A stretch of 20,454 bases of DNA. Origin: a virus. The notes beneath the pieces were generated by a model, which saw only the letters and a list, made by a program, of their open reading frames with translations, did not search any database and had not been told where the DNA came from. Within the stretch, counting starts at the first letter, position 1, and each line of letters opens with the position of its first letter. The DNA lies in the IMG/VR virus record IMGVR_UViG_3300005613_002912, positions 1 to 20,454 of that record, one strand, 5' to 3'. Below, in pieces: positions 800 through 18,775 of the stretch. Made by a program: the position numbers and the translations under genes.

Positions 800-3700
800 T
801 CAACCGAAAGGTTTCCAACCACCAATAGACCATTCCGTAGGATCTAGTTCAATTTTCCTAGAAGGTGCTGTTTTGATAGGCTCCCTATCAGGTAGGTCAT
901 CCTGCACATACGGTTGTCCACCTGTAGAAACATATCCTGTTCCCGGTGCTTCTAACCGTTCTTGCATATCTGTGGATGGCGTTTGTACTGGTGTGCTAGT
1001 AACTGTCGGTCTAGATGTCGGTCTAGAAATCCCACCTTCCCATTGCCTTAACCCTTGACTTGTACCAGCAACAGGAGTGGTGTACCCCTCCCATTCACCA
1101 AGAGGTTGAACAGCAGACCTAACATACAGCGGAGGAATTGACCCATAACCATTAGAGAGTTTCTCGAAGTCTTCCTTGCTGAGATTCCACTTAGACATGT
1201 CAATAAACTGTGTTGGCGATGTAGCTCCTGCTTCAGCTGCTCTAGCCATAGTCATAGCCATTTCAGCAACATCGTTAGGATTGAAAGTGGTCAAAGCTTG
1301 GATAGCTCTATCACCTGTTGCTGCATACTGGTTAAGACGCTCAATGGCTGCATCCGCATCTCGCAAATAATTTCGTATATCGTTACGCTTGGTAGAGATA
1401 GCCTCTCTTTTAGCTGCAAGTCCCTTACCATAGCCAGATTCGTAGAAAATCTTTGGAGCTGTGTTTGTAACGAGTTGGTCTAGGTTTTTCTTCAAAGTGT
1501 TCATAGTAGCGACTACAGACCTACTGACACCCTTAGACATATCCCCACCAAAGAAGGGGTTAAATTTCTTAACCAGCGACATTGGGTCATTGATATAAGG
1601 TGCTAGCTGTTGAAATGCAGGAGACTGTTGAAGCAACGCGGAGTCTCTTCCACCTCTCAGAAGCATTTGCTGCAGATTATTGGCCATAGTGAACACTTCA
1701 GCATAGGTATCAAGCTGACCCCAATCTATGCTATCCACAGAGATTCCATTTCTCTGAGCCATTTTGCTCCAACCAGCAACAAGAGTCTGGAAGTTGCCAT
1801 CCAAACCAGTGTTGGTAACCTCGTTGCGAATTTGCTGCGTAAGGCTAGTTACCTCTCGATTAACGATAGTGCTCAGGTCTGTAGATAGCTGGTCAATTGT
1901 AGCCATATCTGCATCAGCTGCTTCAATATCTGATTCAATCTTGTCTGTGTTTGCTACAGCTGCAGCAATAGTACCTCTGAGTTTAGTCGCTTCAGATTCC
2001 ATAGCACCTTGGATATCCTGAATTGCGTCCTCAGCAACAAAATCTCTTGGGTCTCCTTCAGGAGTCAAACCCTCTTCAGAGTCAAACTCACCAGCCCGTT
2101 CTGTTACTACTTTATTCCAGAGGAAGTTGGTAGCTGAGTTAGCGAAGGTTGCGAGAGACTTACCGAGAGACTCAACAAACACTTCTAGACCAGTATCGAA
2201 ATTACCCTCATCAAAATACTTCTGAATAGCTGTAATATCCCCAGAAGCATCAATGCGCTCAGTAATCTTTCGCTGAACCATCGCGTTAATCTTTTCAGCT
2301 TTCTCAGGGTCAGTGAGTGTATTGTCAGCAAGAACCTTCGCTACCTGAAGTCTTTCGTTATCAGAGAACTCGATTTTAGCTCGCTCTATTTCAGGGGTGT
2401 TCGGGTCATCCATCGCAATATCAATACCACCAGTCTCACGAATACTGTTGAGAACCCCTGCAATAATTCCAGTAGAGCCAAGGTCAGTACCGCTCATCTC
2501 CCCAATCCATTTAGATAGCACTTGCCGCTGAGACATAGCTAAACCGCTATCGGGGTCAGAGATAAGTTGGGAGATGGCTTTTGCTGGGTCATTACCATCT
2601 TTACCAGCAGCAATATCGTCGAACCATTGTAGAGCTGCTTTGAGGTTGTCAGTATTCTGCCCTTCAGCTTCACCGCTTTGAATCAATCCCTGAAAGTATT
2701 GCTGAAGTTTAGGGTATGCTTCTTGAAACCCTTCGTTTATCTCAGTGTAATACTGTTCCAGAGTTTCCTTAGTTTGGTCACCCCAATATCTAGCAGCCTG
2801 AGTAAGAGCATTGCGAGTCTCAGCATCGAATGCAAGAGACTTAGCGAAATTACTTCTCAACCTATTCTGAGTAAGGGCTGACTCAAAATCCTGACCAAAC
2901 AGGCTCTCCTGACCGATGAGCGCCTTGTTCAACTCAGCTTCCCAGGCATCCTGGTTCATATTGATGAGGGATTCAATATTGAAGTTACCCTGACCAAGCT
3001 CACCGTAAAACTCCGGCCCCTTACCCTCACCTGTCAACGCTCTGTACTGGTCCATAGCTCGGTAGATACCAGAAACTAAACCTTGCTCATCCATCATTTG
3101 TAGTTGTCTGCGTAGAGATATAGACTCAGGAGAATCTGGATTGAGTTTTTCCAGCCTCTGAATTGAGGTAGCGATTTGAAAGGAGTCGTTGAGATACCGT
3201 TGTTCTTCTGGGTCTAACTGACCATCGCCATCTAAATCAGCAAACTGTTTTAGCACATCTTCAAAAGACTTAGCTTGGACATTGATCTGCTCTCCAATTT
3301 GTTGATAGTCAAACAGCGGAGACATCTCCTGTTGAATGCCAGCCAACTCTTGCTGTTTCTGCTGAGCTAGAGCTTCAGTATCGTAACCAATTTCGCCAAT
3401 GTCTGGGATTACAAACTGCTGCGTAGCTTCGTCCCAAACAGGCTGTAGTTCAGCACTGTCTGCAATTGCTAATTTATTAACATCACCGCCGCTCAATAGA
3501 TTATTGACCTTTGCAGCAAGTCTATTAGAGAAGGTGGTTAGATTTTTCTGCATAGAACCCGCTGCAGCAGAACCAGCTTGAGTCTGAGCTTGAGGTGCTA
3601 TTGCTTGCTGTTGCTGAACTTGTTGGGTCGATGCTATTCCTTTACGCTGAGTGTCTAGTGCTTTATTCGCAGCAGACTGTTCAGCGAGCAATTGGTTAGA

Positions 3701-3802
3701 CTGATTCCCACTCATTGGGTGACGCGCTGTAGCCATATCCAATTGTTTTGGGGATAGCGTAGACGTGTCTAAACTTGGTACAGGTGTTATTTCCCCAGCC
3801 AT
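800..3802 (-). CDS. 1000-residue virion protein with EF-hand calcium loop; probable internal/ejection protein
   Basis: The ATG at 3802 is preceded by GAGGT 6 bases upstream, and the gene starts 7 bases after the stop of the 173-residue gene. Residues 1-90 are Gln/Ala/Ser-rich with a short Gln run (VQQQQA) and look disordered. Residues 189-200 (DLDGDGQLDPEE) match the EF-hand loop at every ligand position: D189, D191, D193, Q195 (backbone ligand), D197 and E200. The middle is mostly helical, with a coiled-coil-like stretch around 625-670. The last ~90 residues are Pro/Thr/Ser-rich and probably disordered. I see no lytic transglycosylase or protease motif. Size, composition and position after the nozzle fit an internal or ejection protein. 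That function is inferred; the family is not recognised. Confidence 0.8.
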   Translation of the reverse strand: MAGEITPVPSLDTSTLSPKQLDMATARHPMSGNQSNQLLAEQSAANKALDTQRKGIASTQQVQQQQAIAPQAQTQAGSAAAGSMQKNLTTFSNRLAAKVNNLLSGGDVNKLAIADSAELQPVWDEATQQFVIPDIGEIGYDTEALAQQKQQELAGIQQEMSPLFDYQQIGEQINVQAKSFEDVLKQFADLDGDGQLDPEEQRYLNDSFQIATSIQRLEKLNPDSPESISLRRQLQMMDEQGLVSGIYRAMDQYRALTGEGKGPEFYGELGQGNFNIESLINMNQDAWEAELNKALIGQESLFGQDFESALTQNRLRSNFAKSLAFDAETRNALTQAARYWGDQTKETLEQYYTEINEGFQEAYPKLQQYFQGLIQSGEAEGQNTDNLKAALQWFDDIAAGKDGNDPAKAISQLISDPDSGLAMSQRQVLSKWIGEMSGTDLGSTGIIAGVLNSIRETGGIDIAMDDPNTPEIERAKIEFSDNERLQVAKVLADNTLTDPEKAEKINAMVQRKITERIDASGDITAIQKYFDEGNFDTGLEVFVESLGKSLATFANSATNFLWNKVVTERAGEFDSEEGLTPEGDPRDFVAEDAIQDIQGAMESEATKLRGTIAAAVANTDKIESDIEAADADMATIDQLSTDLSTIVNREVTSLTQQIRNEVTNTGLDGNFQTLVAGWSKMAQRNGISVDSIDWGQLDTYAEVFTMANNLQQMLLRGGRDSALLQQSPAFQQLAPYINDPMSLVKKFNPFFGGDMSKGVSRSVVATMNTLKKNLDQLVTNTAPKIFYESGYGKGLAAKREAISTKRNDIRNYLRDADAAIERLNQYAATGDRAIQALTTFNPNDVAEMAMTMARAAEAGATSPTQFIDMSKWNLSKEDFEKLSNGYGSIPPLYVRSAVQPLGEWEGYTTPVAGTSQGLRQWEGGISRPTSRPTVTSTPVQTPSTDMQERLEAPGTGYVSTGGQPYVQDDLPDREPIKTAPSRKIELDPTEWSIGGWKPFG
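3203..3238 (-). other. EF-hand calcium-binding loop codons (residues 189-200 of the 1000-residue protein)
   Basis: These 12 codons encode DLDGDGQLDPEE, a full match to the canonical EF-hand loop pattern DxDxDGxxDxxE: acidic residues at loop positions 1, 3, 5, 9 and 12, and Gly at 6. The flanks (FEDVLKQFA before, QRYLNDSFQI after) could form the entering and exiting helices. I see only one such loop in the protein. It could be an isolated EF-hand or a dockerin-like single site. Calcium binding is inferred from the motif. Confidence 0.75.
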
Positions 3803-3809
3803 TTCTACC

Positions 3810-4331
3810 TCACAAAATTACAAAAGTGACTACTTCTCTTGCCAACGTCACAGTCTTTTGCACCCTCAAGTCTACCTTATCAGAGAGGGTAAGTACATTC
3901 CCTACGATATTGGTGATTTTTCTCTCGACATTCCCAACGAATACAACATCTCCGACGACGAATACAGAGGAATCCAGTACGGTAAAACTCCTCTTCTGGG
4001 TGACAGAGATTTCGTTAGTTAATGTATCTGCCAAATAAGGTTTCACTACAACTTCACTATACCCTGAACGAATAATTGAGAAGAATTTCACCCTCCCGCC
4101 ACCAGATACTGTGACTGCTACTTCTCTTTTTAATCCATGCGGTATTACTGTAGTGCTGCCGTGTGCTACATTCAATTGAATAACTCTGGAGGAGATGTTC
4201 TCAGTAAGAGTTAGTTTTGTCAGAGACCTGAACGCTTTCTGAATCAAAGTGTTATTTGTTCTAGCCCACTTCTTAAACCAAGATGGGCTATCATCAGGAA
4301 CAGCGATTCCGACTACCTGTATTTCTGCCAT
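3810..4331 (-). CDS. Beta-rich 173-residue structural protein of unknown role, downstream of nozzle
   Basis: The ATG at 4331 is 2 bases past the stop of the nozzle gene, with AGAGG a few bases upstream, so translation is probably coupled. The first ~45 residues look helical (SPSWFKKWARTNNTLIQKAF). The rest alternates short beta-strand-like segments rich in Val, Ile and Thr, including a VAHGSTTVIPHGL segment near residues 55-67. I see no signal peptide, membrane span or catalytic motif. Its place between nozzle and ejection proteins suggests a small tail component, such as a tail-tip, plug or fibre-adaptor protein, or a virion assembly factor. This is context only and I do not recognise the family. 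Confidence 0.7.
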   Translation of the reverse strand: MAEIQVVGIAVPDDSPSWFKKWARTNNTLIQKAFRSLTKLTLTENISSRVIQLNVAHGSTTVIPHGLKREVAVTVSGGGRVKFFSIIRSGYSEVVVKPYLADTLTNEISVTQKRSFTVLDSSVFVVGDVVFVGNVERKITNIVGNVLTLSDKVDLRVQKTVTLAREVVTFVIL

Positions 4332-4333
4332 GC

Positions 4334-7300
4334 TTACCTCTGCCTAATCATCTTAGGGCCAATTTTGTTCACATGAACCCAGAAACCATGGACACCCGCA
4401 CCTTGGTCAATAGTCGTGTTAGACAGTCTGAAACTTAACTGAATAGACCTACTTGGGATAACAGTCTGCCTTCGAGACTCTATGTATTTCTGAGACGCTG
4501 TGTATCTGTCTCCGATTTCATCAGAGGCTAGAGCACTCACATCCAAATTAAACGAACCTATGGTTTCATAAGACTGCCTGAAATTCCATGCAGATGCTAT
4601 TGTCATAGAGTTGTCATACTTAGTATCCAACTGAATAACCGTTTCACGTACATCCTTGTAACTATCAGCAGCGCCGAAATCATAGAATCGCGTGTCTATG
4701 TAGCTCTCAATGGCTGACTCATCATCACGATACCTTGTAGCTGCAAATTCACTACGGATTCTGAAAATCTCACCTGTATGGCTCCCGAAATACGAAGCTT
4801 CATTAAAATGCAGCCACATGTTTGCAGACATATTAGTGTTTACAGTCCAACCACCTCCAGTCACAATACCTGATATATCCTTATTGTTAAAATTCAGCTG
4901 CAAGTTTCTATCTTGTGACAAGTAAGAACCGTCGATAGAGTCAGCAATAGGCGCTCCGAGTCTGATAAGATAGTTGGTCGGGTCATATCCACCAGCCATG
5001 AATGGGAATAGTGAATTGTTGTTCTTGATGTAGTCCTTGAAAACCCTATTAAGTCTAATAATCTTATGACACTCGTTCCCATCAGTAAAGAAGAACCCAG
5101 ATTTAGCTAAGAACATACAGCCTTTATCAGTAGGAACGATGCACTTCTTGGAAACCGCACCTACTTTAGCCTGTACTGGGTCTAAAATAGGTCCAGTTGT
5201 CTCAATCTTAACCTTGAAAATTTGGCTTTCCTTAAATACCAGGATGTATTCTTCAAAGGGAATAGCGCCAATTATCTCCTCACCGTCTTCATTAGTTAAA
5301 TCATAGAAACTGACATCTCTAAAAGATGTGTCTCCTATCGGGGTCCACCACATCCTACTCGGGTAACTCTCTTCGAGATAATCATCAGTTTGTATAGCTC
5401 CTGTTGAAGTGACTTTACCACTGTCAGCATCCCACTCGTAGTATCCAGCAGCTAAATCCATTTCAAGGCTGTACTTGTTAGCATCAAAAAACCCGATATC
5501 AGAGTCCCGTGCATTGGCGTATTTATTATTTGGCCATTTATGGTTAATGAACTTAAACCCATTGATAGGGAACTCTCGCAATAGGTTTCCAGGATTAGCT
5601 CCCCAGTATGCGAACCCATCAGTCGCCAGAGCTGTTGAGATAGCTGTACCAAGACGCTTAATCACACGTTCGTATGGGGTCTGTCCATCTAATGGTCCGA
5701 ACATTGTTCCAGTTACATCAGCAGTTGGAGTAACAGGCACAGGAACAGGAACATATTGAACAGTGGAGCTGAAAGAGCCACCATCAATTCGACAAGCCAG
5801 AATTTTAAGATTAGTCATCCCCACGAGGGATGCTTTATCAATAGCGTCTCCGTCCATATACAAACGTAGACCATACAAACTCCCTAACCCAATTTGATTA
5901 GACCAACCAGATACAGTTTTTATTTGATAGATTTGATACCATCCTGAAACCTGTAAACTGTGTTGAAGCGAATCAGATGTCTTAGCTATCACATACACCC
6001 ACTGATTCTCCTGCAATGGTAGTGCTATGGATTGTGCATGTGACGGATAGTTGACCTCCATATATGTTGAAGCGAAAGTAACCAGAGATGGTGTTACCAT
6101 TGAACCAGCTACAACAGCCGCTGTGAAATCGGGGAATATGTCTAACGGCGGGTCGATGTATACGGTTACTTCAGATACAGACGTCCCTGCATCATAGGCC
6201 GCTACAAGATGTGTTCCGTTTACTTGAATACCCTTCTCATTAGGTAATCGACTAGTTGCTGAGTCGTTAGGAATCCCATCAATAGTCACATAGTCTACAT
6301 CAGCTGTGAGACCAAGGTCAGCAACTGCTGAAGTCTCCAGCACCAAGGTGTTAGATGGATTGCTGATACTCCCAACAGCGGCGTAGAGGACATGGTTAGT
6401 AATGCCCACATTCGGTGCAAAGAATATCTGTAAATCCCCAACATTGGTTGTTGCGGATATCTCAATATCAATGCTGTAGTCCATCGCTTGTAAAAGCATG
6501 TAGTCAGCTACAGTAGAAAAACCTATAATCTTGTAGGGAGCTAGAGTATATGTAGAACCCGATACAAGTGTTGCCTTAAACACTACTTCTTCATTGAGAT
6601 TGTATTGACGGTTATCCGCATCATTTTTATCACGCATTTGTGGGTAGTATGCAAAGGCGTCATCCCCACGCAGAACTAGCCAATAGCCATCGTAGAATCC
6701 TGCAAGACGAGGACTAGCAGAGAGTTCTAACTCAATGTAGGTGTTTGTTATAGACAGAGAGATAACATTGGAGCTGGTATCCTTCTCTCCGAAGTAGAAT
6801 ACCCCATACCGATTATCCAAGCTTGCTACGACAGGAGCTGTCCATTTCTTCTGAGCAGCTGTTAACGCAATTACCGCACCAGACGTACTGATTGTAGTAA
6901 ATATCTGTGAATCGAAGTTAAAACCGTCGTACTCAGTTCGATAGTTGTCCCTAGCTACAGCTTTGAGTAGAAAAGTATCCCCAGTGCCCAAGTATGCTGG
7001 TAGTAATAAGTCTGATGCTACGTTCAGTCTATTAGAGGTATCCGCGTATGTCGCTTCAGTTACATCAAATGTCTCAGTCGTAAAAACTTGGTATTCTATC
7101 TCTGTAGCTGTAGATGGGCTGACTACTGTAGTTGTAGTAGTTGTGTCGTCCACAGGGCATAGGCAGAATTGATACTCAACCAGTTCAGACGTAGCTGGTA
7201 CAAAAGTCAGTAACCCATTTGCACCAAAAGCTGATGTAAGGCTATCAGGGTCAAAAACTCGTATGCCTGAGAAATTGAAATACGGATTCTCTCTCCCATT

Positions 7301-9703
7301 AAAAGCTACTAGCCTATTTTGGAAGTTGACTATGTTGTTGGCTCTTGGAGGTGTTCTGATGTTCCTAGTTAACTCATCCTCAGCATTTTGCGAAACAGAA
7401 GCGTAGAGAACTTTTCCGTTGTCCTCTAGAAGAGTAGAAGTTAGAGTGCCGACGTATAGGTTAATATAGGGAGTATCAGGATTGTTAACTTTAGAGACTT
7501 CCCTATAAAATATCTGCCCATCCAGGATCCCATCGGAAGTTCCATCGAGAGTTCGATAAGCGTTGATGAAAATATTATCAGCAGGGAGTCCTACACCCCT
7601 AGGGATAGTTTTAACTTGTACCTCAATCAATTGACTGTTAAACGAGCCGTCTGTTGCAGGAGCAGCTTGAATAACGGTTGTGTTTGGTGAAGTAATCCCG
7701 CTTTCAATTTCTGTGAGAATACCGTTAACAAACTCAAAGTATGAGTACGTCAACACAATGCTGTAAAAATTCCCTACCTTCCTGCCATCAGAGTCCTCGA
7801 CAATTGCTAGATTGCCTGTTGAGCTTGGAACATTGGTTGCAAGAACTGATGGAGGGGATGGGAAATACTGATTAACTATCTCAGAACCATTGAATTTCCA
7901 GAGTCCATCCTTTTGTCCAGCGATGTAAATATTTCTGTCAATAAGTGCGTGACTCAGGTCCACAGTAGAGTCTGGGAAGTATGAGGATAAGATAGGTTCA
8001 TAATTGTCAAGAGCAGCACTGTCTGGGTAGTTTACTGGGGTAAACACAGCTCCGAAAGTTATGGTTGAGTCACTCTCATAGAGTGTAGCGTTTTCTAACA
8101 CTATAATGTTTGTGTAAACCCCTAGGGGCATTTCAGCTGCTGTTCCGTAATAATTGACTGTCTTTGCCTTGTGTGTAGCATATGCAGTGCCAACTAGAGT
8201 CTGAAAAGTGCATCCAGGAAATACAAGTGGAATCTCGTCGAAAGTCTCAGTTATGAACTGAACCATGGTCGTTAGTCGAGAGAAGCGTAACTTAGCGCCT
8301 GTTTTTACAGTAATAGATGTGCTGGCGTAATCAGTGTTGGTTAATTGTAGCGATGCCTCACTATTTATCCTAGTTACCACAAATTCGTAAGTAGTCAACT
8401 CCCAGCTAGTATCAGCTGCTTGTTCAAGATAGACAGTATCTCCGAGAATATAGGGTCTCGGAGTGGGGATCGTGACGTTCCCAACACCTGAAGCGTTGAG
8501 AGTTAAAGTCTGTCCAGCAAGGACTGTAGTTTTGCGAGTGTTATACACCCTGTCAGGCGGGTATTGTTCTACGAACACATTCCCAGAGTAACCAGTAACC
8601 ATTCTGTTTTGAACTAGATCTGTATCATAGAAATACGCCAATAAATTTACAGCAGGGACATCAATCCCAGTCCCATAAAGAAAGCCGACATCTGTGTATG
8701 TAGCAGAGGTAGTTGATACAATAATCTTGTTATAGGTGACGCTATACATGCTGTTACAAGAGAGAATAGTTTTAGCTGCTATTGATGGCAGGCTGTATGA
8801 CAAAAATTCAGCTGTCTGCGATTTGAAATAGTGCGTATAGCCGTTGGTATAGAAAATTCTAGGAAAATTGTTAGCAGCTGCACCAGCATAAGCAGCGTAC
8901 AGGGTAACTCGAACTTCATTACCGATAATGGAGTTGACATACCCCGCTACACCACCAACTGCTGAACTGTTAGTGATGCCAGCGTCAAACCTAACTAAAG
9001 CATAGGTCTGAATATCTAGTTCAGTTATATCGTTAACTGTCACTAAAATCGTTGTACTGTCCTCAGCTGCGATACTAGCTATGTGCTCTTTAACCAAGCA
9101 ATTGAAAGTCGGGCCAACCCCAAACCGTGTTACTTTCTCAGTAGCCGCACCAGCTCCTAAATTGGGGGAAATACCCGCAGCCAAAAGAGGTTGAAGCGGT
9201 AGGATGAAGGTGTTGTTATCGAATACAGCTATAGGAGTAACATAGTAAACCGAACCGCTGTGTTGAATCTCCAACACAGTTTCAGTAGTAACAGTGTTAG
9301 TATTTGGGTTGGTTGTATAATCCTTAATTCTAGCAAATACCGTCTCGGTGCGGTCATCGACTTGATAAAATCTAGCATCACCGTAAGCTGAATTGGATGC
9401 GTTATTGTTTAACCACAGCTGAATAGTTCTCTCATATTTCGGCACAAAATCAAACTGCATGGTCACTGAAGTATAGTCATCCGCGCCACCATTCACCAGC
9501 GTATACTCTTTTACTCTGATAGGCAGTTTACAACCATATAGATGATAGCCTGCTCTTTTCTGAATAAATCCAGGCGAGGATAAGTCAACATTCCTGGCAT
9601 CCAGTACATAACCTTCCTCAATATCTGCTAAATTGTTCAACCCATCTATGCCTTGCTCCATGCGAACTTGCATAGAGCCATGGTCATCCTGCGTGTATGT
9701 CAT
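4334..9703 (-). CDS. Giant tail nozzle protein (P22 gp10 / T7 gp12-like)
   Basis: The ATG at 9703 shares a base with the adaptor stop (TAATG), and AGGAG lies 10 bases upstream. The N-terminus (residues ~18-56: GIDGLNN, then ARNVDLSSPGFIQKRAGYH) is the usual opening of phage nozzle beta-propellers. Propeller-like motifs return at ~591 (YIAGQKDGLWKFNG), at ~786-805 (PPRANNIVNFQNRLVAFNG), and over the last ~330 residues (GAIPFEEYILVFKESQIFKV, then FGSHTGEIFRI). From family knowledge this ring sits below the adaptor and forms the tail channel. T7 gp12 is about 794 and P22 gp10 about 472 residues, so this one is more than twice as long. The extra length lies mainly at ~130-580 and ~830-1450 and is Ser/Thr-rich beta sequence. 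Short low-complexity runs (six Thr at ~854-859; VPVPVPV at ~1317-1323) look like linkers. The role is well supported; the extra domains are unidentified. Confidence 0.85.
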   Translation of the reverse strand: MTYTQDDHGSMQVRMEQGIDGLNNLADIEEGYVLDARNVDLSSPGFIQKRAGYHLYGCKLPIRVKEYTLVNGGADDYTSVTMQFDFVPKYERTIQLWLNNNASNSAYGDARFYQVDDRTETVFARIKDYTTNPNTNTVTTETVLEIQHSGSVYYVTPIAVFDNNTFILPLQPLLAAGISPNLGAGAATEKVTRFGVGPTFNCLVKEHIASIAAEDSTTILVTVNDITELDIQTYALVRFDAGITNSSAVGGVAGYVNSIIGNEVRVTLYAAYAGAAANNFPRIFYTNGYTHYFKSQTAEFLSYSLPSIAAKTILSCNSMYSVTYNKIIVSTTSATYTDVGFLYGTGIDVPAVNLLAYFYDTDLVQNRMVTGYSGNVFVEQYPPDRVYNTRKTTVLAGQTLTLNASGVGNVTIPTPRPYILGDTVYLEQAADTSWELTTYEFVVTRINSEASLQLTNTDYASTSITVKTGAKLRFSRLTTMVQFITETFDEIPLVFPGCTFQTLVGTAYATHKAKTVNYYGTAAEMPLGVYTNIIVLENATLYESDSTITFGAVFTPVNYPDSAALDNYEPILSSYFPDSTVDLSHALIDRNIYIAGQKDGLWKFNGSEIVNQYFPSPPSVLATNVPSSTGNLAIVEDSDGRKVGNFYSIVLTYSYFEFVNGILTEIESGITSPNTTVIQAAPATDGSFNSQLIEVQVKTIPRGVGLPADNIFINAYRTLDGTSDGILDGQIFYREVSKVNNPDTPYINLYVGTLTSTLLEDNGKVLYASVSQNAEDELTRNIRTPPRANNIVNFQNRLVAFNGRENPYFNFSGIRVFDPDSLTSAFGANGLLTFVPATSELVEYQFCLCPVDDTTTTTTVVSPSTATEIEYQVFTTETFDVTEATYADTSNRLNVASDLLLPAYLGTGDTFLLKAVARDNYRTEYDGFNFDSQIFTTISTSGAVIALTAAQKKWTAPVVASLDNRYGVFYFGEKDTSSNVISLSITNTYIELELSASPRLAGFYDGYWLVLRGDDAFAYYPQMRDKNDADNRQYNLNEEVVFKATLVSGSTYTLAPYKIIGFSTVADYMLLQAMDYSIDIEISATTNVGDLQIFFAPNVGITNHVLYAAVGSISNPSNTLVLETSAVADLGLTADVDYVTIDGIPNDSATSRLPNEKGIQVNGTHLVAAYDAGTSVSEVTVYIDPPLDIFPDFTAAVVAGSMVTPSLVTFASTYMEVNYPSHAQSIALPLQENQWVYVIAKTSDSLQHSLQVSGWYQIYQIKTVSGWSNQIGLGSLYGLRLYMDGDAIDKASLVGMTNLKILACRIDGGSFSSTVQYVPVPVPVTPTADVTGTMFGPLDGQTPYERVIKRLGTAISTALATDGFAYWGANPGNLLREFPINGFKFINHKWPNNKYANARDSDIGFFDANKYSLEMDLAAGYYEWDADSGKVTSTGAIQTDDYLEESYPSRMWWTPIGDTSFRDVSFYDLTNEDGEEIIGAIPFEEYILVFKESQIFKVKIETTGPILDPVQAKVGAVSKKCIVPTDKGCMFLAKSGFFFTDGNECHKIIRLNRVFKDYIKNNNSLFPFMAGGYDPTNYLIRLGAPIADSIDGSYLSQDRNLQLNFNNKDISGIVTGGGWTVNTNMSANMWLHFNEASYFGSHTGEIFRIRSEFAATRYRDDESAIESYIDTRFYDFGAADSYKDVRETVIQLDTKYDNSMTIASAWNFRQSYETIGSFNLDVSALASDEIGDRYTASQKYIESRRQTVIPSRSIQLSFRLSNTTIDQGAGVHGFWVHVNKIGPKMIRQR

Positions 9704-10665
9704 TAGCGTGGACTCCTGTATCTACCCAAGATTTGAGGACGTGCTGGTCTATCAATCGTGTCCATTCCTGGTCGTCCAACTCTATCGCTCTTGTACTCGT
9801 TCATCAGGTCTTTAAGCTGCTCTTTCAAGCTAACATCATTCTCGTTCAGAGATGACTTGATAGCGATAACAGCATAGTTAATTAGGAACTCGTTGAAGGT
9901 GTCTTCAGTAATCGGCACTCCTACGCCAAATCCTTGAACTACAACATCATCCTGAGCAATGTCTGATAAATCAGAGGAAGTCGAGGAGAAATCTACCCCT
10001 TGAACCTGAGAACGATTGGTTGGGTCAGCTATTGTGATTGAGTTACCTGTTGCAGCTGTGTAACGCAGAACGTGTTTCACAACTCCTGTTACTCCATCAC
10101 AGATAGTCAGATAATTCTCTCCAACAGCAGAACTAGCATTATCGGAAAAATCGCTATCTACATCCTCAATCAGCGTAATAGTTGGGCTGGAGAACGAGAG
10201 TATGACACCTTCAGTTCTTTTCAGCGGAACCAACTTAGGTATGTGAAGCAGCTCAGCAGTGATAGATATGTTGGGAGTCGGGTAGAATTTCAACGTATTG
10301 TTCAGCTGACTCCACGCATAGGGGGTAGTCGAAAACGATTGCGGGAGGTCATACTTATGTGAGTCCTTGAAGTCGATTTTGTCTATCTTAATCCAGCCAC
10401 GAGGAGTATTCCCAGGAGTAGGCCAACGAAGATAGTCTACGCGCTTCGACCAGAGTCTTTCTGGTAGAGTATACTCCTGCGTCCCAGAAGTAATAGATAG
10501 CTCGTAAATTTGACCAAAATGATTGTCAGATGCGCGAGCGTAGTGATTATAGAGTTTGCGATACCCTCTATTCAGGAAGGAGATAATGTAGGTATCAGAG
10601 ATTGGATTTATCTGATACTCCATCAATCCGTGACGCACTTCTTCAACGAGTTCTGCTGTATTCAT
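9703..10665 (-). CDS. Head-to-tail adaptor (connector) protein, T7 gp11 / P22 gp4-like
   Basis: This protein of about 320 residues links the portal to the nozzle ring. The N-terminal ~45 residues are helical (NTAELVEEVRHGLMEY, then ISFLNRGYRKLYNHYA), as in adaptor helix bundles. A beta domain follows with the typical W-x-x-x-NNTLKFYPTP motif near residues 120-130, then an inserted beta-rich segment at ~165-255. A C-terminal helical part (DTFNEFLINYAVIAIKSSL, then LKDLMNEYKSDR) ends in a basic tail. I start it at ATG 10665, not the in-frame ATG at 10677. The upstream ATG falls right at the end of a terminator U-tract and has no Shine-Dalgarno, whereas GGAG sits 6 bases before 10665. The gene overlaps the nozzle start by one base (TAATG), so the two are probably coupled. 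Adaptor identity is inferred from motifs plus position. Confidence 0.8.
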   Translation of the reverse strand: MNTAELVEEVRHGLMEYQINPISDTYIISFLNRGYRKLYNHYARASDNHFGQIYELSITSGTQEYTLPERLWSKRVDYLRWPTPGNTPRGWIKIDKIDFKDSHKYDLPQSFSTTPYAWSQLNNTLKFYPTPNISITAELLHIPKLVPLKRTEGVILSFSSPTITLIEDVDSDFSDNASSAVGENYLTICDGVTGVVKHVLRYTAATGNSITIADPTNRSQVQGVDFSSTSSDLSDIAQDDVVVQGFGVGVPITEDTFNEFLINYAVIAIKSSLNENDVSLKEQLKDLMNEYKSDRVGRPGMDTIDRPARPQILGRYRSPR

Positions 10666-10670
10666 GCGGT

Positions 10671-10675
10671 TCTCC
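10671..10675 (-). promoter_or_regulatory. Ribosome binding site deciding the adaptor start
   Basis: GGAGA on the minus strand ends 6 bases before the ATG at 10665. It overlaps the upstream in-frame ATG at 10677, which directly adjoins the U-tract of the preceding terminator and has no site of its own. This favours the downstream start. Confidence 0.7.
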
Positions 10676-10677
10676 AT

Positions 10678-11083: not shown

Positions 11084-11974
11084 TTACGATTGATGGTCCA
11101 TGATAGGAGCGTGAGCAATAACATAGTCCAAATCAGCTGAGAAAGGCGCATGGGTTGCAACAGTATATGCTGCAAGATGACTTACACGCATATAGCATTG
11201 AGCAGCAGCCATCGAAGCGTGTTTGGCAGCTCCACCAAGCAGGTCTTCATTCAGCCAGAAATAGAACTTACCCTGGGAAGCAACATACGAAATCTTGAAC
11301 ACGTTGTATCCCGATGAGAGAGCAACAGTCTTCACATTCGCAGTCGTCTCAGTCTTAGCAACAACAGCACTCCCAGCAATTTTGAACTCAGCATAGTAAG
11401 TGTGAGCAATATTGGCAGGGTCATCGTCAATAGCTCCACCAGCAACACCCAGCTCTACAAAGCCAACAGTTGCAGCCTGACTTGTGTTAGTCGTAGCAGC
11501 GAGACCGAACTCAACTTCCCAATCCTGGCTAGCAGCAGTCGGAAGGAAGAGATTACCGTCATTGTCAAGGATGCAAGTTGCAGCAGCAGCAACGTCGCCC
11601 AACTGAGCCTTAAAGATACCACGAGTCTTAGGCAGAGTTGAGAGAGTGTTGTAAAGACCAGTCGTAACAGCAACAGCATTTGCATTGGTTGAGCTGGCAG
11701 AGACACGCCAGAAACCCTGCTCACCGAGAATCATATACTCTTCGAGAGTACCCAGACCCGAACCAGCAGTTGCAACGATAACCTTTGCAGGAATTCTCGT
11801 ACCGGCAACAGCATCAACATATGGCAAAATCATGCTGGAAGTGAAACCAGCACAAGCACCATTGATAGCTGCATCGAGCTGAGTTCCAGGATAAAACTTC
11901 CCCACTGTTCCTGCAGAGAGAGTATTGTTCATCTTCTCTACAATCTCAGGGGGGAGACCAACTTTCTTGTTCAT
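11084..11974 (-). CDS. Beta-sandwich protein after the major capsid gene; candidate capsid decoration protein
   Basis: I start this 296-residue protein at ATG 11974 (MNKKVGLPPEIVEKM), with AGGGG 8 bases upstream. The longer frame from 11980 would need a TTG only 2 bases after that site. After a short helical start the sequence is mostly beta, Ala/Thr-rich and low in charge. Segments such as DWEVEFGLAATTN (~150-165), the YYAEFKIAG region, and YNVFKISYVASQGKFYFWLN (~230-250) resemble the strands of concanavalin/LamG-like jelly-roll folds. No catalytic residues stand out. It directly follows the capsid gene, after a hairpin, where many phages place decoration or head-fibre proteins. The fold and role are inferred from pattern and context; no family was recognised with confidence. 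Confidence 0.72.
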   Translation of the reverse strand: MNKKVGLPPEIVEKMNNTLSAGTVGKFYPGTQLDAAINGACAGFTSSMILPYVDAVAGTRIPAKVIVATAGSGLGTLEEYMILGEQGFWRVSASSTNANAVAVTTGLYNTLSTLPKTRGIFKAQLGDVAAAATCILDNDGNLFLPTAASQDWEVEFGLAATTNTSQAATVGFVELGVAGGAIDDDPANIAHTYYAEFKIAGSAVVAKTETTANVKTVALSSGYNVFKISYVASQGKFYFWLNEDLLGGAAKHASMAAAQCYMRVSHLAAYTVATHAPFSADLDYVIAHAPIMDHQS

Positions 11975-11982
11975 TTTCAATA

Positions 11983-11987
11983 CCCCT
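11983..11987 (-). promoter_or_regulatory. Ribosome binding site deciding the start at 11974
   Basis: AGGGG on the minus strand is 8 bases from the ATG at 11974 but only 2 bases from the in-frame TTG at 11980. The spacing supports the ATG. Confidence 0.6.
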
Positions 11988-11999
11988 AGTTGAAGTTAA

Positions 12000-12019
12000 G
12001 CCCTCTTATTTGAGAGGGC
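12000..12019 (-). terminator. Hairpin after the major capsid gene, probable (partial) terminator
   Basis: The minus strand has a GC-rich 7-bp stem GCCCTCT / AGAGGGC with a 6-base loop, located 26 bases past the capsid stop in a 71-base gap. It is followed by TTAACTT, a poor U-tract, so termination may be partial. It could also protect the capsid mRNA from 3' decay. Confidence 0.6.
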
Positions 12020-12045
12020 GTATACACTACAAGCCTAACAACTAC

Positions 12046-13647
12046 TTAGTATTTGCTGAACTTGAAGTTGTGGATAGCACCGCAATCACGAGGCATGTTC
12101 ACACAGAACTCACCAGTCATTGTGCTGTATGCTTCCACAACATTGAGTCGCGCTCCACCAGAGATAGAGAGGAACTGATTCTGGGAACCAACCTCAACTG
12201 CCTCAAGCTTACCGTCATAAAGGGTGAGACCCTTGTTAGGTAGCGAGAACAAACGGTCGTGACGCATAGAAGTGTGCGTATCCAGCTGATAGGTGCGATC
12301 ATTAAACTTGATCATCTTTGCACCTTCTTCACCACGGATACCCTTGCCTTCAACAACGCGACGGTCAAGCTCAGAGAGCGAAACCAGCGAAGAGAACACA
12401 AGCGGATTCATGATAACACCAAACCACTTAGCCATATCCTTGCGGTTACGGTTACGGGTGTCATTCTGAGCAAGGAAGCTATACAAGGTGTTGAAGGTAA
12501 GGTCTTTACCACCATTGTCCTTGAGAGTTGCCAGATATTGACGAACCGATGCGCGGTTGATGTTGTGAATGGTGTTAGTCTTGTTCATGATGTGGGACTC
12601 AAGACCAGTAAACACACCATCAGAGATGGTAGCAACATCAGTCGTAGATACCCAACCAATTCCAAGCTGAAGCTTAGCAAATGCCTGATTCTCTGCAACA
12701 TACAGAGGGTGCATAAGCGTTGCATAGTTGGTCGATGCAATCATTGCACTGATATCCACAGCATCAGCGAAAGCCGCGTCAGCAGAAGGATACTCAGGTC
12801 GAATACCCTTGAGAGTAGTAACAGTCACAACACCAGAAGCAGCTGCTGAACACCAGCGGTCGTAGTACACATAGCTTCCGATAGCAGAAACAGTCGTACC
12901 AGCACGAACAGGCATCACATAGATTGCGTTGTTAGCTTGGTCAACTTCAACAACTCGGAAAGCGTCGTATACAACAGTTGTAGATGTACCAGCATCTTCT
13001 GCGCTAAATGCACCGAGACGCAGCACACTTGCAGCATCATAGAACACGAAGGAGACAACAGAACCTTCGAGGAAGTGAGCAACCGACCCAGCAGCTGTAT
13101 CAGAGCTGGACAGCTTAATCTTCATCGGGGTATCTGGGTCAGCAATCGTGAAGCTCGCACCAGATACAGCATCCGATGCACCAAATGCAACAGGAGTACC
13201 CTGGCGTCCAGTTCCATCACCAAGAAGCTGCAGATTGATGAAGGACTTATGAAAGGCAGTCTTCATCAAATACTCTTGCTTAGCGTTCTCGATGTAAGCA
13301 GCTGCCTGGGAGCTAGAGAGCTTACGGTGAAAACGCTCGAATTGGAAGGTGAGGGTTTGCAATTTGGGATAAATCTTGCCCAAGATGTTGCTAGCCTTAT
13401 GTCCTGGAGCAAATCGACCAGACTGCTGAGCAATACGGGCGACCGAACCACCACCCGGATCAACATTGAGAGCAAATCGGAGTTCCTGACCCCAATCCAC
13501 CATTTTCTTATCAAGCAACGCATCAAGCGTATCAACTTCAGCCCAAATAGGGTCAATTCCATTGTCTTGTACAATTTTGAGAAGTTCACCCAAATCGAAG
13601 TTTCCGCTATTGGGGAACAAAACAGTCTGAGCTGTTGGAAGAGCCAT
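12046..13647 (-). CDS. Major capsid protein
   Basis: This 533-residue protein forms the icosahedral shell. It follows the scaffold by 15 bases and has the strongest ribosome site in the window (GGAGGT, 8 bases before ATG 13647), as expected for the most abundant virion protein. The N-terminus MALPTAQTVLFPNSGNFDLG is followed by a long helical/extended region with QFERFHRKLSSSQAAAYIEN, resembling the N-arm and spine helix of HK97-fold subunits. The middle is a Gly/Ala/Ser/Thr-rich beta domain, and the C-terminal third has IHNINRASVRQYLATLKDN and MAKWFGVIMNPLVFSSL. Length is larger than HK97 (~385) and nearer P22 gp5 (430) with an insertion. Identity rests on gene order (portal, scaffold, capsid), composition and expression signals. 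Confidence 0.85.
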   Translation of the reverse strand: MALPTAQTVLFPNSGNFDLGELLKIVQDNGIDPIWAEVDTLDALLDKKMVDWGQELRFALNVDPGGGSVARIAQQSGRFAPGHKASNILGKIYPKLQTLTFQFERFHRKLSSSQAAAYIENAKQEYLMKTAFHKSFINLQLLGDGTGRQGTPVAFGASDAVSGASFTIADPDTPMKIKLSSSDTAAGSVAHFLEGSVVSFVFYDAASVLRLGAFSAEDAGTSTTVVYDAFRVVEVDQANNAIYVMPVRAGTTVSAIGSYVYYDRWCSAAASGVVTVTTLKGIRPEYPSADAAFADAVDISAMIASTNYATLMHPLYVAENQAFAKLQLGIGWVSTTDVATISDGVFTGLESHIMNKTNTIHNINRASVRQYLATLKDNGGKDLTFNTLYSFLAQNDTRNRNRKDMAKWFGVIMNPLVFSSLVSLSELDRRVVEGKGIRGEEGAKMIKFNDRTYQLDTHTSMRHDRLFSLPNKGLTLYDGKLEAVEVGSQNQFLSISGGARLNVVEAYSTMTGEFCVNMPRDCGAIHNFKFSKY

Positions 13648-14798: not shown

Positions 14799-14816
14799 CC
14801 CCAATCACATTTGGGG
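14799..14816 (-). terminator. Hairpin spanning the portal stop codon
   Basis: The minus strand reads CCCCAA, ATGTGA, TTGGGG: a 6-bp stem with a 6-base loop that contains the portal TGA. The last portal codons (Pro-Gln) form one arm. An A/T-rich tail TATAATTATTTT follows. This could be a weak terminator or an mRNA processing/stability element between portal and scaffold. Confidence 0.45.
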
Positions 14817-16781
14817 CATTGCTCCTTGACCACCTGCATCAACTGGAGTTCCCGGTTGAGGCAGACCCATTGCTGCATTTGGTGTAGCTCCCCCAGGTTG
14901 GGGCTGATTCTGCGCTGCTTTAGCTTCTAGTTCAGCTTGTTGATTCTCATGCGCTGTGTAGTGTTTCCACAACTTAGCCTTCAATTCAGGCGGCAGCTTC
15001 TCAAAGAACTGTTGCTGGAACAGGTCTTGCAATGCTTCCATATGCGCAGGGTGCTCTTGCCACGGCATAACTGCAACTTCCCTGTCACCCTCAATGATAT
15101 CTACAATCTCAGACTCCTGAGTTCTAACAGCCTGATTGAATACTTCAGTGAGGTCAAACATATCTCCATCAAGGAGTATCTTGAAGACCTTGCGTAGATT
15201 ACCACCAGCTCTCTCGTAAGCTCCATTGTTCACAATCTCAAGCAACATCTGTTTTCTTGCTGATGGGTCAATTGGCATGTACTTACCGTATTCAACATAG
15301 ATACCGTAGTCGCCCATAGTGTTCTCAGCCATGAAGTAATCATCTTTATAGATGTTCTCATTACCGATGACTTGCAGTTTACGAGGCTCTTTACAATACT
15401 GCTGTACAAGAGATAGAGCTTGTGAGTAGATAGTGTTGAGGAATTGACGCTTCTTATTGAACAAACGGATGCGGAACTTATCGTCCATCTCAATACCCAG
15501 CTGAACAGCATAAGAACTCAGCTCGCGTGGAATCTCACCACGGCTGAACTCACCCTGTCCAAAAACTGCGTCAATCTCTGATTTAACGATATCAATCATA
15601 CGCCAAACATCGGTGGTAATTGCACTGGGTTTTAGGTGATAGATCTGCCCACCAGACGCAGGGTTGTAGTAAATAATCTTGGCAATATCTGCTGTCTTTA
15701 TCGCATCGTCTGTAGAACCTTCAGGAGCAATGACTCGTGGAATACCGCAAATCTCAACATTCTCAATAATCAGACTGAGGAAGAGATTGGTGATGTCCAA
15801 ATGATGAGCGCAGTGAACAGCCCGACTCATACCAAAGGGGTTCTCATCAATATCCAGGTCAGACAATACGGAGTATGGCAGCTCTTTATGCCTGTACGGG
15901 TGTTCAGACCGTTCAAGAATCTCAATCTGTTTTTCAGTCTTTGAGGTCTCTACAAACACAATGTATGTGCCAAGCATACCGTTCCAAGGTAGGGCTTTCT
16001 CCCAATAGAAAAATAGCTCAATAGAGTTTTTTGATTTACGCTTACCATCCACCATACGATGCTCATCATTAGCACCGTCCTGGTTTAAGAGGTCATCAAG
16101 AATATCCTGCCTGTCAGGAAATAGATAGATAAACTCCTGTGCTGAGATAGTGCAACGCTCTATGCAATTCTTAGCGTCCTTGAAGTGTTTAGCAGTTGAG
16201 TCGATATAAAAGTCACGCGGAGATACGTTGCGAACAACAACCTCCCCAGTCATCGCAAACTCATCATTTACTGGGTCAAAAGCATCTGGGTTATCAACCA
16301 AAGGTTCACCAGCGTGTTTATCCCAACCAACGTAGGCAACACCAGTACCCTTAGTAACCACATTCAAATAAGGACCAGATTCTATCGTTTCTTGTAGGTT
16401 TGTAACACGCTTAATATGCTCCACCCAGAGTTGAGCGAGTTCAGCGGCCTTGCGAGTCTCATAGTCTCTCTTGAAAGGTCTAGCAACTACATCAGGCTCA
16501 GTAATACAGAGTTTGCTGTGTAGAAAGAACATAGCCCTTGCGAGCATAGTGGACTGTAAAACAGGCTTTTCTTCAGCAGTCGTAGACCGTTGGAATACCT
16601 CCCGTACAGCTGTATCTGCATCCACCCCACCATCGCTTAGTCTACCTGTAATAGCTTGATAGATGTTCTCAGTTACAGCCCACTCTAGCTCTAGATTACG
16701 GACCCTACCTCGGTTAAACTTCAACTCGTATTCAAGAAACTTGCTCATCTCATCATTTGAGAGTATCCGTAATCTAGCCAT
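14805..16781 (-). CDS. Portal protein
   Basis: This 658-residue protein forms the dodecameric ring at the capsid vertex, through which DNA enters and to which the adaptor binds. It lies downstream of the terminase and upstream of the scaffold. The N-terminus (DEMSKFLEYELKFNRGRVRN) is the opening helix seen in podovirus-type portals. The central wing contains VTKGTGVAYVGWDKHAG and VVRNVSPRDFYIDSTAKHFK, the typical 'bad-weather' strand motif of portals (V-x-P-x-D-F-Y-x-D). The stem/crown follows (DPSARKQMLLEIVNNGAYER). The C-terminal ~60 residues are Gln/Pro/Gly-rich and disordered. The ATG at 16781 overlaps the previous stop (TAATG) with AGGAG 10 bases upstream. Size fits P22-like portals (725) better than T7 gp8 (536). 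Confidence 0.9.
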   Translation of the reverse strand: MARLRILSNDEMSKFLEYELKFNRGRVRNLELEWAVTENIYQAITGRLSDGGVDADTAVREVFQRSTTAEEKPVLQSTMLARAMFFLHSKLCITEPDVVARPFKRDYETRKAAELAQLWVEHIKRVTNLQETIESGPYLNVVTKGTGVAYVGWDKHAGEPLVDNPDAFDPVNDEFAMTGEVVVRNVSPRDFYIDSTAKHFKDAKNCIERCTISAQEFIYLFPDRQDILDDLLNQDGANDEHRMVDGKRKSKNSIELFFYWEKALPWNGMLGTYIVFVETSKTEKQIEILERSEHPYRHKELPYSVLSDLDIDENPFGMSRAVHCAHHLDITNLFLSLIIENVEICGIPRVIAPEGSTDDAIKTADIAKIIYYNPASGGQIYHLKPSAITTDVWRMIDIVKSEIDAVFGQGEFSRGEIPRELSSYAVQLGIEMDDKFRIRLFNKKRQFLNTIYSQALSLVQQYCKEPRKLQVIGNENIYKDDYFMAENTMGDYGIYVEYGKYMPIDPSARKQMLLEIVNNGAYERAGGNLRKVFKILLDGDMFDLTEVFNQAVRTQESEIVDIIEGDREVAVMPWQEHPAHMEALQDLFQQQFFEKLPPELKAKLWKHYTAHENQQAELEAKAAQNQPQPGGATPNAAMGLPQPGTPVDAGGQGAMPQM

Positions 16782-17035
16782 TAGCGTTGTCTCCTAGTCA
16801 CGAACTCTTCAGTTGCAACTCGCATTACTTTGGGGGTTCTACCTTGTGTCTCTTCAGATTTTTTCTGAACCTCTTCAACCTCTTTTTCATTAAGATACTG
16901 AACAGCTACATGAGAAAGTAGGGTCAATTTCTCAGCAAATCCTCGAACTGTGTAAATAAACATGCCAAGATTGGCTACAGAGAGTAGACCAATAGCTGCT
17001 ATAAAAAACCAAACGTACCCCATCGAACCCTCCAT
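16781..17035 (-). CDS. Small single-span membrane protein between terminase and portal
   Basis: This protein of about 84 residues has one strong membrane segment near its N-terminus (GYVWFFIAAIGLLSVANLGMFIYTV, given here only as residues ~6-30: start GYVWFF, end MFIYTV). A charged helical tail rich in Glu, Lys, Arg and Gln follows. The start overlaps the terminase stop. A GTG at 17038, an ATG at 17035 (TGATG junction, GGAGG upstream) and an ATG at 17020 (GGAGG 5 bases upstream) are all possible; I chose 17035. The gene ends sharing a base with the portal ATG. Function is unknown. A single-span holin, an inner-membrane spanin-like protein, or a membrane anchor for packaging are options. The charged tail lacks clear spanin or holin motifs. 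Confidence 0.72.
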   Translation of the reverse strand: MEGSMGYVWFFIAAIGLLSVANLGMFIYTVRGFAEKLTLLSHVAVQYLNEKEVEEVQKKSEETQGRTPKVMRVATEEFVTRRQR

Positions 17036-18552
17036 CACCTAGCCCTCCGTTGTAAAAACTGTACAGCGTATCTGCGAGGTTTAGTATTTTGTCTCACTTC
17101 TGGCTCCTTTGCTGCGTGTTTCGCCCACTTCTTTTTGAGCTGCTCGAAATGGTATTTTATCATATCTTCTTGTGTAGTAGGCGCTTCTGGTGCTGAACTT
17201 CCTCTGGGAGATGGTATTTGTCTGGCAAAATACTGCAGGCAGTCTACAATATGGTCTTTTCTCTTAATTATCTTGCCATCTTTTTGCTTGTACTGATAAA
17301 TCTGTCTGAGAGCCGCCGCGCCACCAATCCTGAAAAACTTGAGCTTTCCGTCTTGCATAAGCTTTCTCAGCGCCATTATCTGTGCTTGCTTATGTTTCTC
17401 AATACAAGGACGCCAGATACCAGAAGAGTGAGCACTAAACCAAGCTTCAGCATTGTCGTATATGTTAAGGCAGTATCGGAAATCTGGTATAGGTCTATAC
17501 TTGTCAACCTCTCGCTCAATATCCTCAGCTTTAGCAAGCCGCCCCTTCCAAAATAATTCACCACTATGCACCACAAACCAATCAGCTGTTTCTGGGTTCT
17601 CTGCTAGAATAGTAAAACCCGTTACATTAGAGGCTGGGTCAAGAACTCTCGCTTGCCGCCAATGTAGAGGTACTTCAAAGTCGTCTACAACTTCAGGTAT
17701 TATATTTTCAAATACAGACTCAGTACCATCGTTCTCATAGTACCAAGCACCATTGAGCCGAGCCTCCCTCTCTGCTTTAGGGAGATGCTTCCATTCGTCT
17801 AACACACGCTGATATTTCTCAGGGTCGTCGCGATAGAGCGGATTAGACAGTAAAGGCCATGTGTGCAATGCAAGACTAGGGTGATTGTCTAAGTAATTCT
17901 TGATGTCCTCATCCGGGTTCAACGGAGTAAAACCCATGACCATATCACCACCCTTGTCTAAAACACGGGTAACGATTTCAGAAATCACCATAATCTTTGG
18001 AGGCATTTCATCCAGGACGGCCACATCAATCGACCGACCCATCAAAGCTAATAGATTCTGACTGTAGGATTTGAACTCAAGCACATCCCCATTTCTGAAG
18101 ATTACTTTGTCGATATACTCATAGCCTTGATGTTTTTTAGTAATTATCATCTGGTTCCCTGAGTCATTTGTATAATACCAGGGAGGGATGAATTTGTGTA
18201 AATAAGTATCCCAGGAAGCTTCCTTCAAGAACTCAAAAGTTGGACCTAGAACCCAGAACTTCTTAGGCTTGGATTTCTCATAGTCCTCTCGCCAATCAGG
18301 GCGATAAGGATGATTACGCATTAACTTCCAGGCAATATCCCTATGTGTAGAGAAGGTTTTTGCAGCACGGTTACCAGTCCGACAGAGTTTTGTCTTTGTC
18401 TGGTCTCTAAAGAAATCTTTCTGTTCTCGAAAAGGCTTAGCCCCTGGCATCCAAGGAATGAAGGATTTCTCAACCCTTTTTCTTTCCTTGTTCTCCAACT
18501 GCAACATCAGTTGAACTAGCTCTTCCTTGTCGCCTTGATTTATTTCGCTCAT
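17035..18552 (-). CDS. Terminase large subunit (ATPase-nuclease DNA packaging motor)
   Basis: This 505-residue protein pumps DNA into the procapsid and cuts the concatemer. An N-terminal adenine-binding region (FIPWMPGAKPFREQKDFF, residues 31-48) leads to an atypical Walker A, TGNRAAKT (59-66, Lys65). Walker B is VAVLDE (177-182, with D181 and catalytic E182). The coupling motif is near MVMGFTPLNP (204-213). The C-terminal RNase-H-like nuclease shows acidic residues D305 (RVLDPAS), D366 (NIYDNAEAW) and D437 (KDHIVDCLQYF). Length is normal for the family. ATG 18552 has GAGAG just upstream. It overlaps the preceding 101-residue gene by 83 bases in another frame. A basic tail ends the protein. 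Identity is secure. Confidence 0.93.
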   Translation of the reverse strand: MSEINQGDKEELVQLMLQLENKERKRVEKSFIPWMPGAKPFREQKDFFRDQTKTKLCRTGNRAAKTFSTHRDIAWKLMRNHPYRPDWREDYEKSKPKKFWVLGPTFEFLKEASWDTYLHKFIPPWYYTNDSGNQMIITKKHQGYEYIDKVIFRNGDVLEFKSYSQNLLALMGRSIDVAVLDEMPPKIMVISEIVTRVLDKGGDMVMGFTPLNPDEDIKNYLDNHPSLALHTWPLLSNPLYRDDPEKYQRVLDEWKHLPKAEREARLNGAWYYENDGTESVFENIIPEVVDDFEVPLHWRQARVLDPASNVTGFTILAENPETADWFVVHSGELFWKGRLAKAEDIEREVDKYRPIPDFRYCLNIYDNAEAWFSAHSSGIWRPCIEKHKQAQIMALRKLMQDGKLKFFRIGGAAALRQIYQYKQKDGKIIKRKDHIVDCLQYFARQIPSPRGSSAPEAPTTQEDMIKYHFEQLKKKWAKHAAKEPEVRQNTKPRRYAVQFLQRRAR

Positions 18553-18775
18553 AAGCTTCTCTCAATTTAAGAGACTTTCTTCCACACATACGGAGAGCTT
18601 GAAAAAATGCCATAACAGGTGAAGTAAAATACTCCCCACTATCAGCATTACCGTATTCAAGCCCGTCGATAAATACACCCAGAACTACGTCATCAGATGC
18701 GAGAGTATAGAGTTGCCAATTTGAAAGACCTTTTACTGCCTCAGCTGTCAACTCACGATACTCTCGTTTTCTCAC
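18470..18775 (-). CDS. 101-residue protein with GTG start; candidate small terminase subunit
   Basis: The start at 18775 is GTG, overlapping the amidase stop as GTGA, with GGTGGAG 8 bases upstream. The protein has a basic N-terminus (RKREYRELTAEAV), a central region LYTLASDDVVLGVFIDGLEY, and a basic Ser/Lys/Arg-rich C-terminus ending GEQGKKKG. Its end overlaps the first 28 codons of the large terminase in a different frame. Small terminases usually sit directly upstream of the large subunit and are small with charged termini, so that role is possible. I cannot see a clear helix-turn-helix or oligomerisation motif. Treat it as an unidentified packaging-region protein unless structure prediction supports TerS. 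Confidence 0.6.
   Translation of the reverse strand: MRKREYRELTAEAVKGLSNWQLYTLASDDVVLGVFIDGLEYGNADSGEYFTSPVMAFFQALRMCGRKSLKLREAYERNKSRRQGRASSTDVAVGEQGKKKG

Follow-up and report, generated by a model that had tools for sequence, protein, structure and literature searches.

The DNA analyzed here, termed the window, is an entire IMG/VR record of 20,454 bases. Its genes are arranged in the leftward order lysis, terminase, portal, putative scaffold, putative capsid, adaptor and nozzle, followed by genes for proteins of 173 and 1000 amino acids, and then by an ORF of 261 amino acids that runs up to the end of the contig. The assigned genes are listed below, where the relative is a second phage contig (coordinates prefixed L004) that is described later.

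18772-20037, lysis gene
17035-18552, minus strand, terminase large subunit (PHROG 2, E 1.2e-19; tblastn)
14805-16781, minus strand, portal protein (PHROG 156, E 2.5e-25)
12046-13647, minus strand, putative major capsid protein (by position only; counterpart in the relative 56% identical)
9703-10677, minus strand, SU10-type adaptor, 324 aa (PF24175 SU10_adaptor, E 8.9e-12)
4334-9703, minus strand, nozzle (tail channel/stabilization) protein, 1789 aa, ~197 kDa (ORF, PHROG 3287, 1832-aa relative)
3810-4331, minus strand, small protein of 173 aa in the tail needle/tip position (by position; 176-aa counterpart in the relative)
800-3802, minus strand, large putative ejection protein, 1000 aa (by position and composition; the relative's counterpart begins at L004:20732)

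Searches of phage records with the portal, capsid and nozzle revealed no close relative, and no relative of the portal was found in the genome contigs searched. The putative capsid protein (533 aa) has no match in PHROG or Pfam although a copy is present in the relative, and it would represent a divergent capsid lineage. The gene that follows it (11084-11980) encodes a 298-aa protein that by eye looks like a concanavalin or jelly-roll decoration protein; a 275-aa protein is found at the equivalent place (11812-12639) in a more distant relative, L015. No database match was obtained for the 173-aa protein behind the nozzle, and no family match for the 1000-aa putative ejection protein.

The nozzle is encoded by a single, intact ORF of 1,789 aa reading from an ATG at 9703 to 4334, exactly the coordinates, strand and length given in the initial annotation. 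Its start codon shares one base with the adaptor stop codon, and there is an AGGAG sequence upstream. The gene thus sits in the tail block immediately behind the adaptor gene, as in T7 and P22.

We have examined the family to which this protein belongs. Residues 1444-1580 match PHROG 3287 (virion structural protein) with E 8.6e-10. A tblastn search of 50,697 phage records gave one match, the 553-aa 'phage stabilization protein' of MW202497.1, to nozzle residues 1457-1767, and hhalign aligned residues 1457-1782 with 217-541 of P0001 ('phage stabilization protein') with E 1.3e-12 and a probability of 97.8%. For the MW202497.1 protein itself there are two matches, one to PHROG 3287 and a weaker one to PHROG 578 'head closure Hc3', the name under which P22 gp10 is annotated. 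Because of this link, the assignment of the 1,789-aa protein to the nozzle/head-closure/stabilization family by sequence comparison is sound. The nozzle gave no significant direct match to T7 gp12, P22 gp10, SU10 gp17 or the crassvirus muzzles, and a PDB sequence search with the whole protein returned nothing meaningful. The SU10 and T7 nozzles share no sequence similarity with each other (PMC9509320).

A full-length relative is present in the 66.9-kb contig IMGVR_UViG_3300037485_001992, which was reached through the match of its putative capsid protein. It encodes a nozzle of 1832 aa (L004:14684-20182) that aligns with residues 16-1777 of the window protein (E 1.6e-182, about 31% identity), and the gene order is the same, with the adaptor before the nozzle and a tip-like protein of ~175 aa after it. 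Protein, alignment and DNA-pattern searches of viral contigs for long nozzles returned this relative only, giving two members in all. Leftward from its nozzle gene the relative has genes for the tip-like protein (176 aa) and for large proteins (258 to 2,145 aa) that look mostly helical, and then replication genes. The protein of 2,145 aa, which ends the structural block in a related contig (L006:6595-13032, minus strand) and has no family match, is a candidate for a giant ejected protein. Between the scaffold and capsid genes the relative also carries, on the opposite strand, a 498-aa ORF (L004:8155-9651, minus strand) that by eye could be a free-standing homing or Vsr-type endonuclease; there is nothing at this place in the window.

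The window protein and its relative were combined into a two-sequence profile and compared by hhalign with eight ordinary nozzles of 512-663 aa from phage records (MW202497.1, MaAM05, SV21, MQM1, CHOED, CRP-603, HTVC104P and ctKR88). The nozzle is divided by these comparisons as follows:

9530-9658, minus strand, N-terminal block, residues 16-58 (hhalign with P0001 26-68, E 4.8e-5, probability 68%)
7358-9529, minus strand, insertion 1 region, residues 59-782, ~720 aa (flanked by hhalign-defined blocks)
7280-7357, minus strand, middle block, residues 783-808, extending up to ~825 (hhalign, eight masters)
5366-7279, minus strand, insertion 2, residues ~809-1446, ~640 aa (hhalign with SV21 and MaAM05)
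5588-5743, minus strand, most conserved stretch, residues 1321-1372, inside insertion 2 (GPxDGxTPxExVIKR...FAYWG; 58% identity to the relative)
4355-5365, minus strand, C-terminal block, residues 1447-1783 (hhalign with the C-terminal part of ordinary nozzles)

Three homologous blocks (~16-58, ~783-808 or 825, and ~1447-1783) were found, collinear and in the same order with all eight ordinary nozzles as master, although the masters have one common alignment and the eight runs are therefore not independent. With short slices, E values over the eight masters ranged from 4.8e-5 to 5.7e-4 for the N-terminal block, from 6.6e-4 to 6.2e-3 for the middle block and from 3.6e-6 to 1.1e-4 for the C-terminal block. 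A whole-length run against P0001 gave non-overlapping matches of 16-60 with 26-70 (E 0.0026), 782-826 with 146-189 (E 0.063) and 1457-1782 with 217-541 (E as above), with their order kept. The middle block is the weakest match, and in a column-shuffle control one of 200 shuffles reached its score; it was also found by the window protein alone and by the relative alone. Residues 14-60 are 53% identical to the relative. Propeller-type motifs had been placed originally at ~18-56, 591-805 and ~1455-1789. The first and last of these are upheld by homology, while the central one was drawn too wide; ~783-825 is retained, and residues 591-781 have no detectable match to ordinary nozzles.

As judged from these alignments, the core is that of an ordinary nozzle of ~500 aa, and it would be expected to fold as a platform with a seven-bladed propeller. 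By analogy with SU10 and crAss001, the middle block may be the first half of a blade hairpin in blade 3. AlphaFold2 predictions for residues 1-880 and 590-1789 using a two-sequence alignment had mean pLDDT values of 29.7 and 25.7; values below 30 are probably due to there being just two sequences in the alignment.

How does the additional sequence enter this core? The ordinary nozzles of 512-663 aa lack both large insertions, with SV21 and HTVC104P having smaller extra stretches ahead of the middle block. With SV21 as master, residues 783-808 align with 305-330 and 1447-1499 with 328-381; with MaAM05 the corresponding matches are 783-825 with 148-189 and 1447-1499 with 171-236. The middle and last matches touch or overlap with SV21, MaAM05 and ctKR88 as masters, and therefore insertion 2 enters at about one point of the ordinary chain. 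The insertion 1 region stands in for ~80-240 aa of ordinary nozzles, and its limits are less sharp than those of insertion 2. Blades 1 and 2 must presumably fall within it. By eye, residues ~588-620 could be blade 2 (dG-W-f-NG...PP). Residues ~641-781, which include a YRT motif, could by eye be an Ig/FN3-like domain in the position that IG1 occupies in crAss001. What the alignments show is a nozzle core that is enlarged at two places, and the assignment to the nozzle family with two large insertions made in the initial annotation is borne out. It had also put the protein at more than twice the usual size, quoting 794 residues for T7 gp12 and 472 for P22 gp10, in agreement with the records. This holds against the nozzles of 512-663 aa, but larger ones have precedent in SU10 gp17 (1005 aa) and in the crassvirus muzzles (1371 aa for crAss001 gp44, and 1,340-1,553 aa for others checked).

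An unusually large protein encoded on a single contig could arise by chimeric assembly or by read-through of several genes. The relative already refutes this, having the same layout and an open frame at 31% identity on an independent contig, and the codon-position composition of the nozzle gene is broadly alike from end to end. The full-length alignment is to a nozzle of similar size, but one that has both insertions itself, which confirms them. The large form is therefore real and inherited; an assembly artefact is ruled out, and we attach virtually no weight to this explanation. If an ordinary nozzle had fused with a second tail protein and now served as needle or spike, this would account for so much extra mass in one chain, and the next gene product is just 173 aa, below the size of the P22 needle (702-bp gene). 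However, the extra sequence lies at two internal points with none joined at an end, and the small tip-like gene remains in both phages, so that a fusion seems improbable.

The insertions are of nearly equal length in the two phages, with residues 61-590 corresponding to 536 residues in the relative and 827-1320 to 511. Identity to the relative is 29% for residues 61-590, 43% for 641-781, and 24-29% for the insertion sequences. Overall, the core is 37% identical and the insertions 26% (permutation p 5e-5, which is indicative only, as positions were treated as independent; the core blocks in the test include 591-781). By this comparison divergence has been faster in the insertions than in the core, as expected of outward-facing parts. 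The most conserved stretch, residues 1321-1372, has no match elsewhere in the viral contigs or phages; it is perhaps a gate, or a contact for the tip protein. It lies a little ahead of the return of the chain to the core.

No Pfam, PHROG or PDB sequence match was obtained for either insertion, including to carbohydrate-binding, enzymatic or fibre families, and segment-to-segment hhalign comparison detected no internal repeats. A small beta-barrel module common to the insertions, tip protein and adaptor seemed plausible by eye, but was unsupported by hhalign. The insertions had been described initially as rich in Ser and Thr. This is correct for Thr, which makes up 13.2% of insertion 1 compared with 6.3% of the C-terminal block, but Ser is not raised.

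Could the insertions be receptor- or glycan-binding domains, making the nozzle an adsorption protein that recognizes the host directly? They are large, the first is rich in Thr, both diverge faster than the core, and for crAss001 a contact between the tip domain and the cell surface has been proposed (PMC10172136). Against this, the search for carbohydrate-binding or fibre families was negative, and insertion lengths are near-constant at 31% identity, while domains that bind receptors are often exchanged as complete units. Moreover, upstream of its lysis gene the full-length relative has a separate gene for a fibre-like protein of 959 aa; residues 783-912, in the C-terminal part of this protein, resemble proteins annotated as tail fibres in Pelagibacter and Synechococcus phages, and a 203-aa protein encoded nearby matches tail-fibre PHROGs. 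The window contig stops just short, on its right side, of the place of this gene, and from the gene order a counterpart would fall past the right end. The initial annotation had read the absence of a fibre gene as pointing to a receptor-binding nozzle and suggested that one might lie further left; neither suggestion survives comparison with the relative, where the fibre-like gene is at a position corresponding to beyond the right end of the window. We consider direct host recognition by the insertions to be possible but doubtful, with perhaps one chance in a few.

The adaptor may be the site at which fibres attach. The window adaptor has an extra stretch of ~100 aa after residue 155, and this is ~250 aa larger in the relative, where the adaptor (L004:12972-14684) is 570 aa as against 324 aa. 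The adaptors of SU10 and T7 carry a dock for long fibres, while P22 and Sf6, which have no long tail fibres, lack it (PMC9509320). By analogy with the SU10 and T7 adaptor structures (PMC9509320), the extra stretch is possibly such a dock, and the difference in length at this point suggests that the dock varies with the fibre. Alternatively, short fibres might dock on one of the nozzle insertions, as they do on a loop in blade 1 of SU10 gp17. The SU10 nozzle does bear short fibres (PMC9509320), and fibre-like proteins are encoded in the relative. Yet what serves as the dock in SU10 is a short loop in the later part of the chain (839-857), with three spaced Trp residues, and not a domain of 600 aa; Trp makes up only 0.4% of insertion 1, and the extra stretch of the adaptor could itself be the dock. 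A docking role for an insertion is thus unlikely, though less so than the fusion discussed above.

Enlarged nozzles of known structure provide a guide to where the insertions lie. In SU10 gp17 (Kuravirus) four Ig-like nozzle domains lie between blades 2 and 3, and rearrange on infection (PMC9509320). In crAss001 gp44, IG1 lies between blade 2 and blade 3, and blade 3 has IG2 and the crass domain (318-1021) inserted in it (PMC10172136); these last two are at the tail tip, probably touching the cell (PMC10172136). The alignment with SU10 gp17 is collinear but weak and not significant (790-806 with 594-610, and 1476-1554 with 678-758). That with crAss001 is roughly collinear, also not significant, and places residues 1459-1584 at 1048-1197, just past the crass domain; a match of the middle block to crassviruses could not be reproduced when short slices were used. 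Against the muzzle profile, with its crass domain, the hhalign probability was about 1% or less for all slices, and the insertions gave no signal with the crassvirus IG2/crass region. From these weak alignments with SU10 and crAss001, the site of insertion 2 would be in blade 3. We propose that the two insertion sites probably correspond to those known in SU10 and crAss001. The nozzle appears to use both known sites, and has a first insertion that is much longer.

The reading that we favor, with reasonable but not high confidence, is that the protein is the nozzle of a short-tailed phage, with a core enlarged by two insertions that most likely extend the distal tail tip. Judging by T7, SU10 and crAss001, the nozzle would comprise six copies (about 1.2 MDa) that hang under the adaptor ring and make up the terminal part of the DNA channel. 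Insertion 1 would lie in the stretch of blades 1-3, where SU10 has its four Ig-like domains and crAss001 its IG1, and insertion 2 would open one core hairpin, as the blade-3 hairpin of crAss001 holds IG2 and the crass domain. To judge from the SU10 and crAss001 structures, the insertions most likely form an extended distal tip by which the channel is kept closed in the virion. The tip would touch the cell surface and rearrange, letting out the ejection proteins and DNA, with long-range recognition carried out by separate fibres docked on the adaptor. A bolder form of this proposal is that the insertions contain folds new to phage tails, a counterpart of the crass domain in a different lineage, and together make a new type of gated tip for the tail, about 1.2 MDa in mass; this we put forward tentatively, as the less probable outcome.

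SU10 and the crassviruses are known cases in which insertions enlarge the nozzle. Such enlargement extends to a lineage with no detectable sequence similarity to either nozzle, and goes further here, to 1,789-1,832 aa. Phages may use the propeller generally as a scaffold for their tail-tip machinery, and the insertion boundaries given here are suited to expression, or to prediction with deeper alignments.

The known systems each differ from the present one. SU10 has its adaptor type in common with the window, but its nozzle lacks an insertion at the second site. The 1666-aa structural protein of phAss-1 comprises an Ig-like part and a propeller part, and is reported to be without a platform domain (PMC10607447); there the Ig-like part is ahead of the propeller, whereas here the insertions interrupt the core. 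In crassviruses the muzzle gene lies behind the tail tubular (ring/adaptor) gene and ahead of the cargo/ejection genes, and insertion 1 of the window nozzle is far longer than the IG1 of crAss001. A similar enlargement of the nozzle is thus already known in gut crassviruses, and the protein described here is a larger variant, with insertions without a recognized fold.
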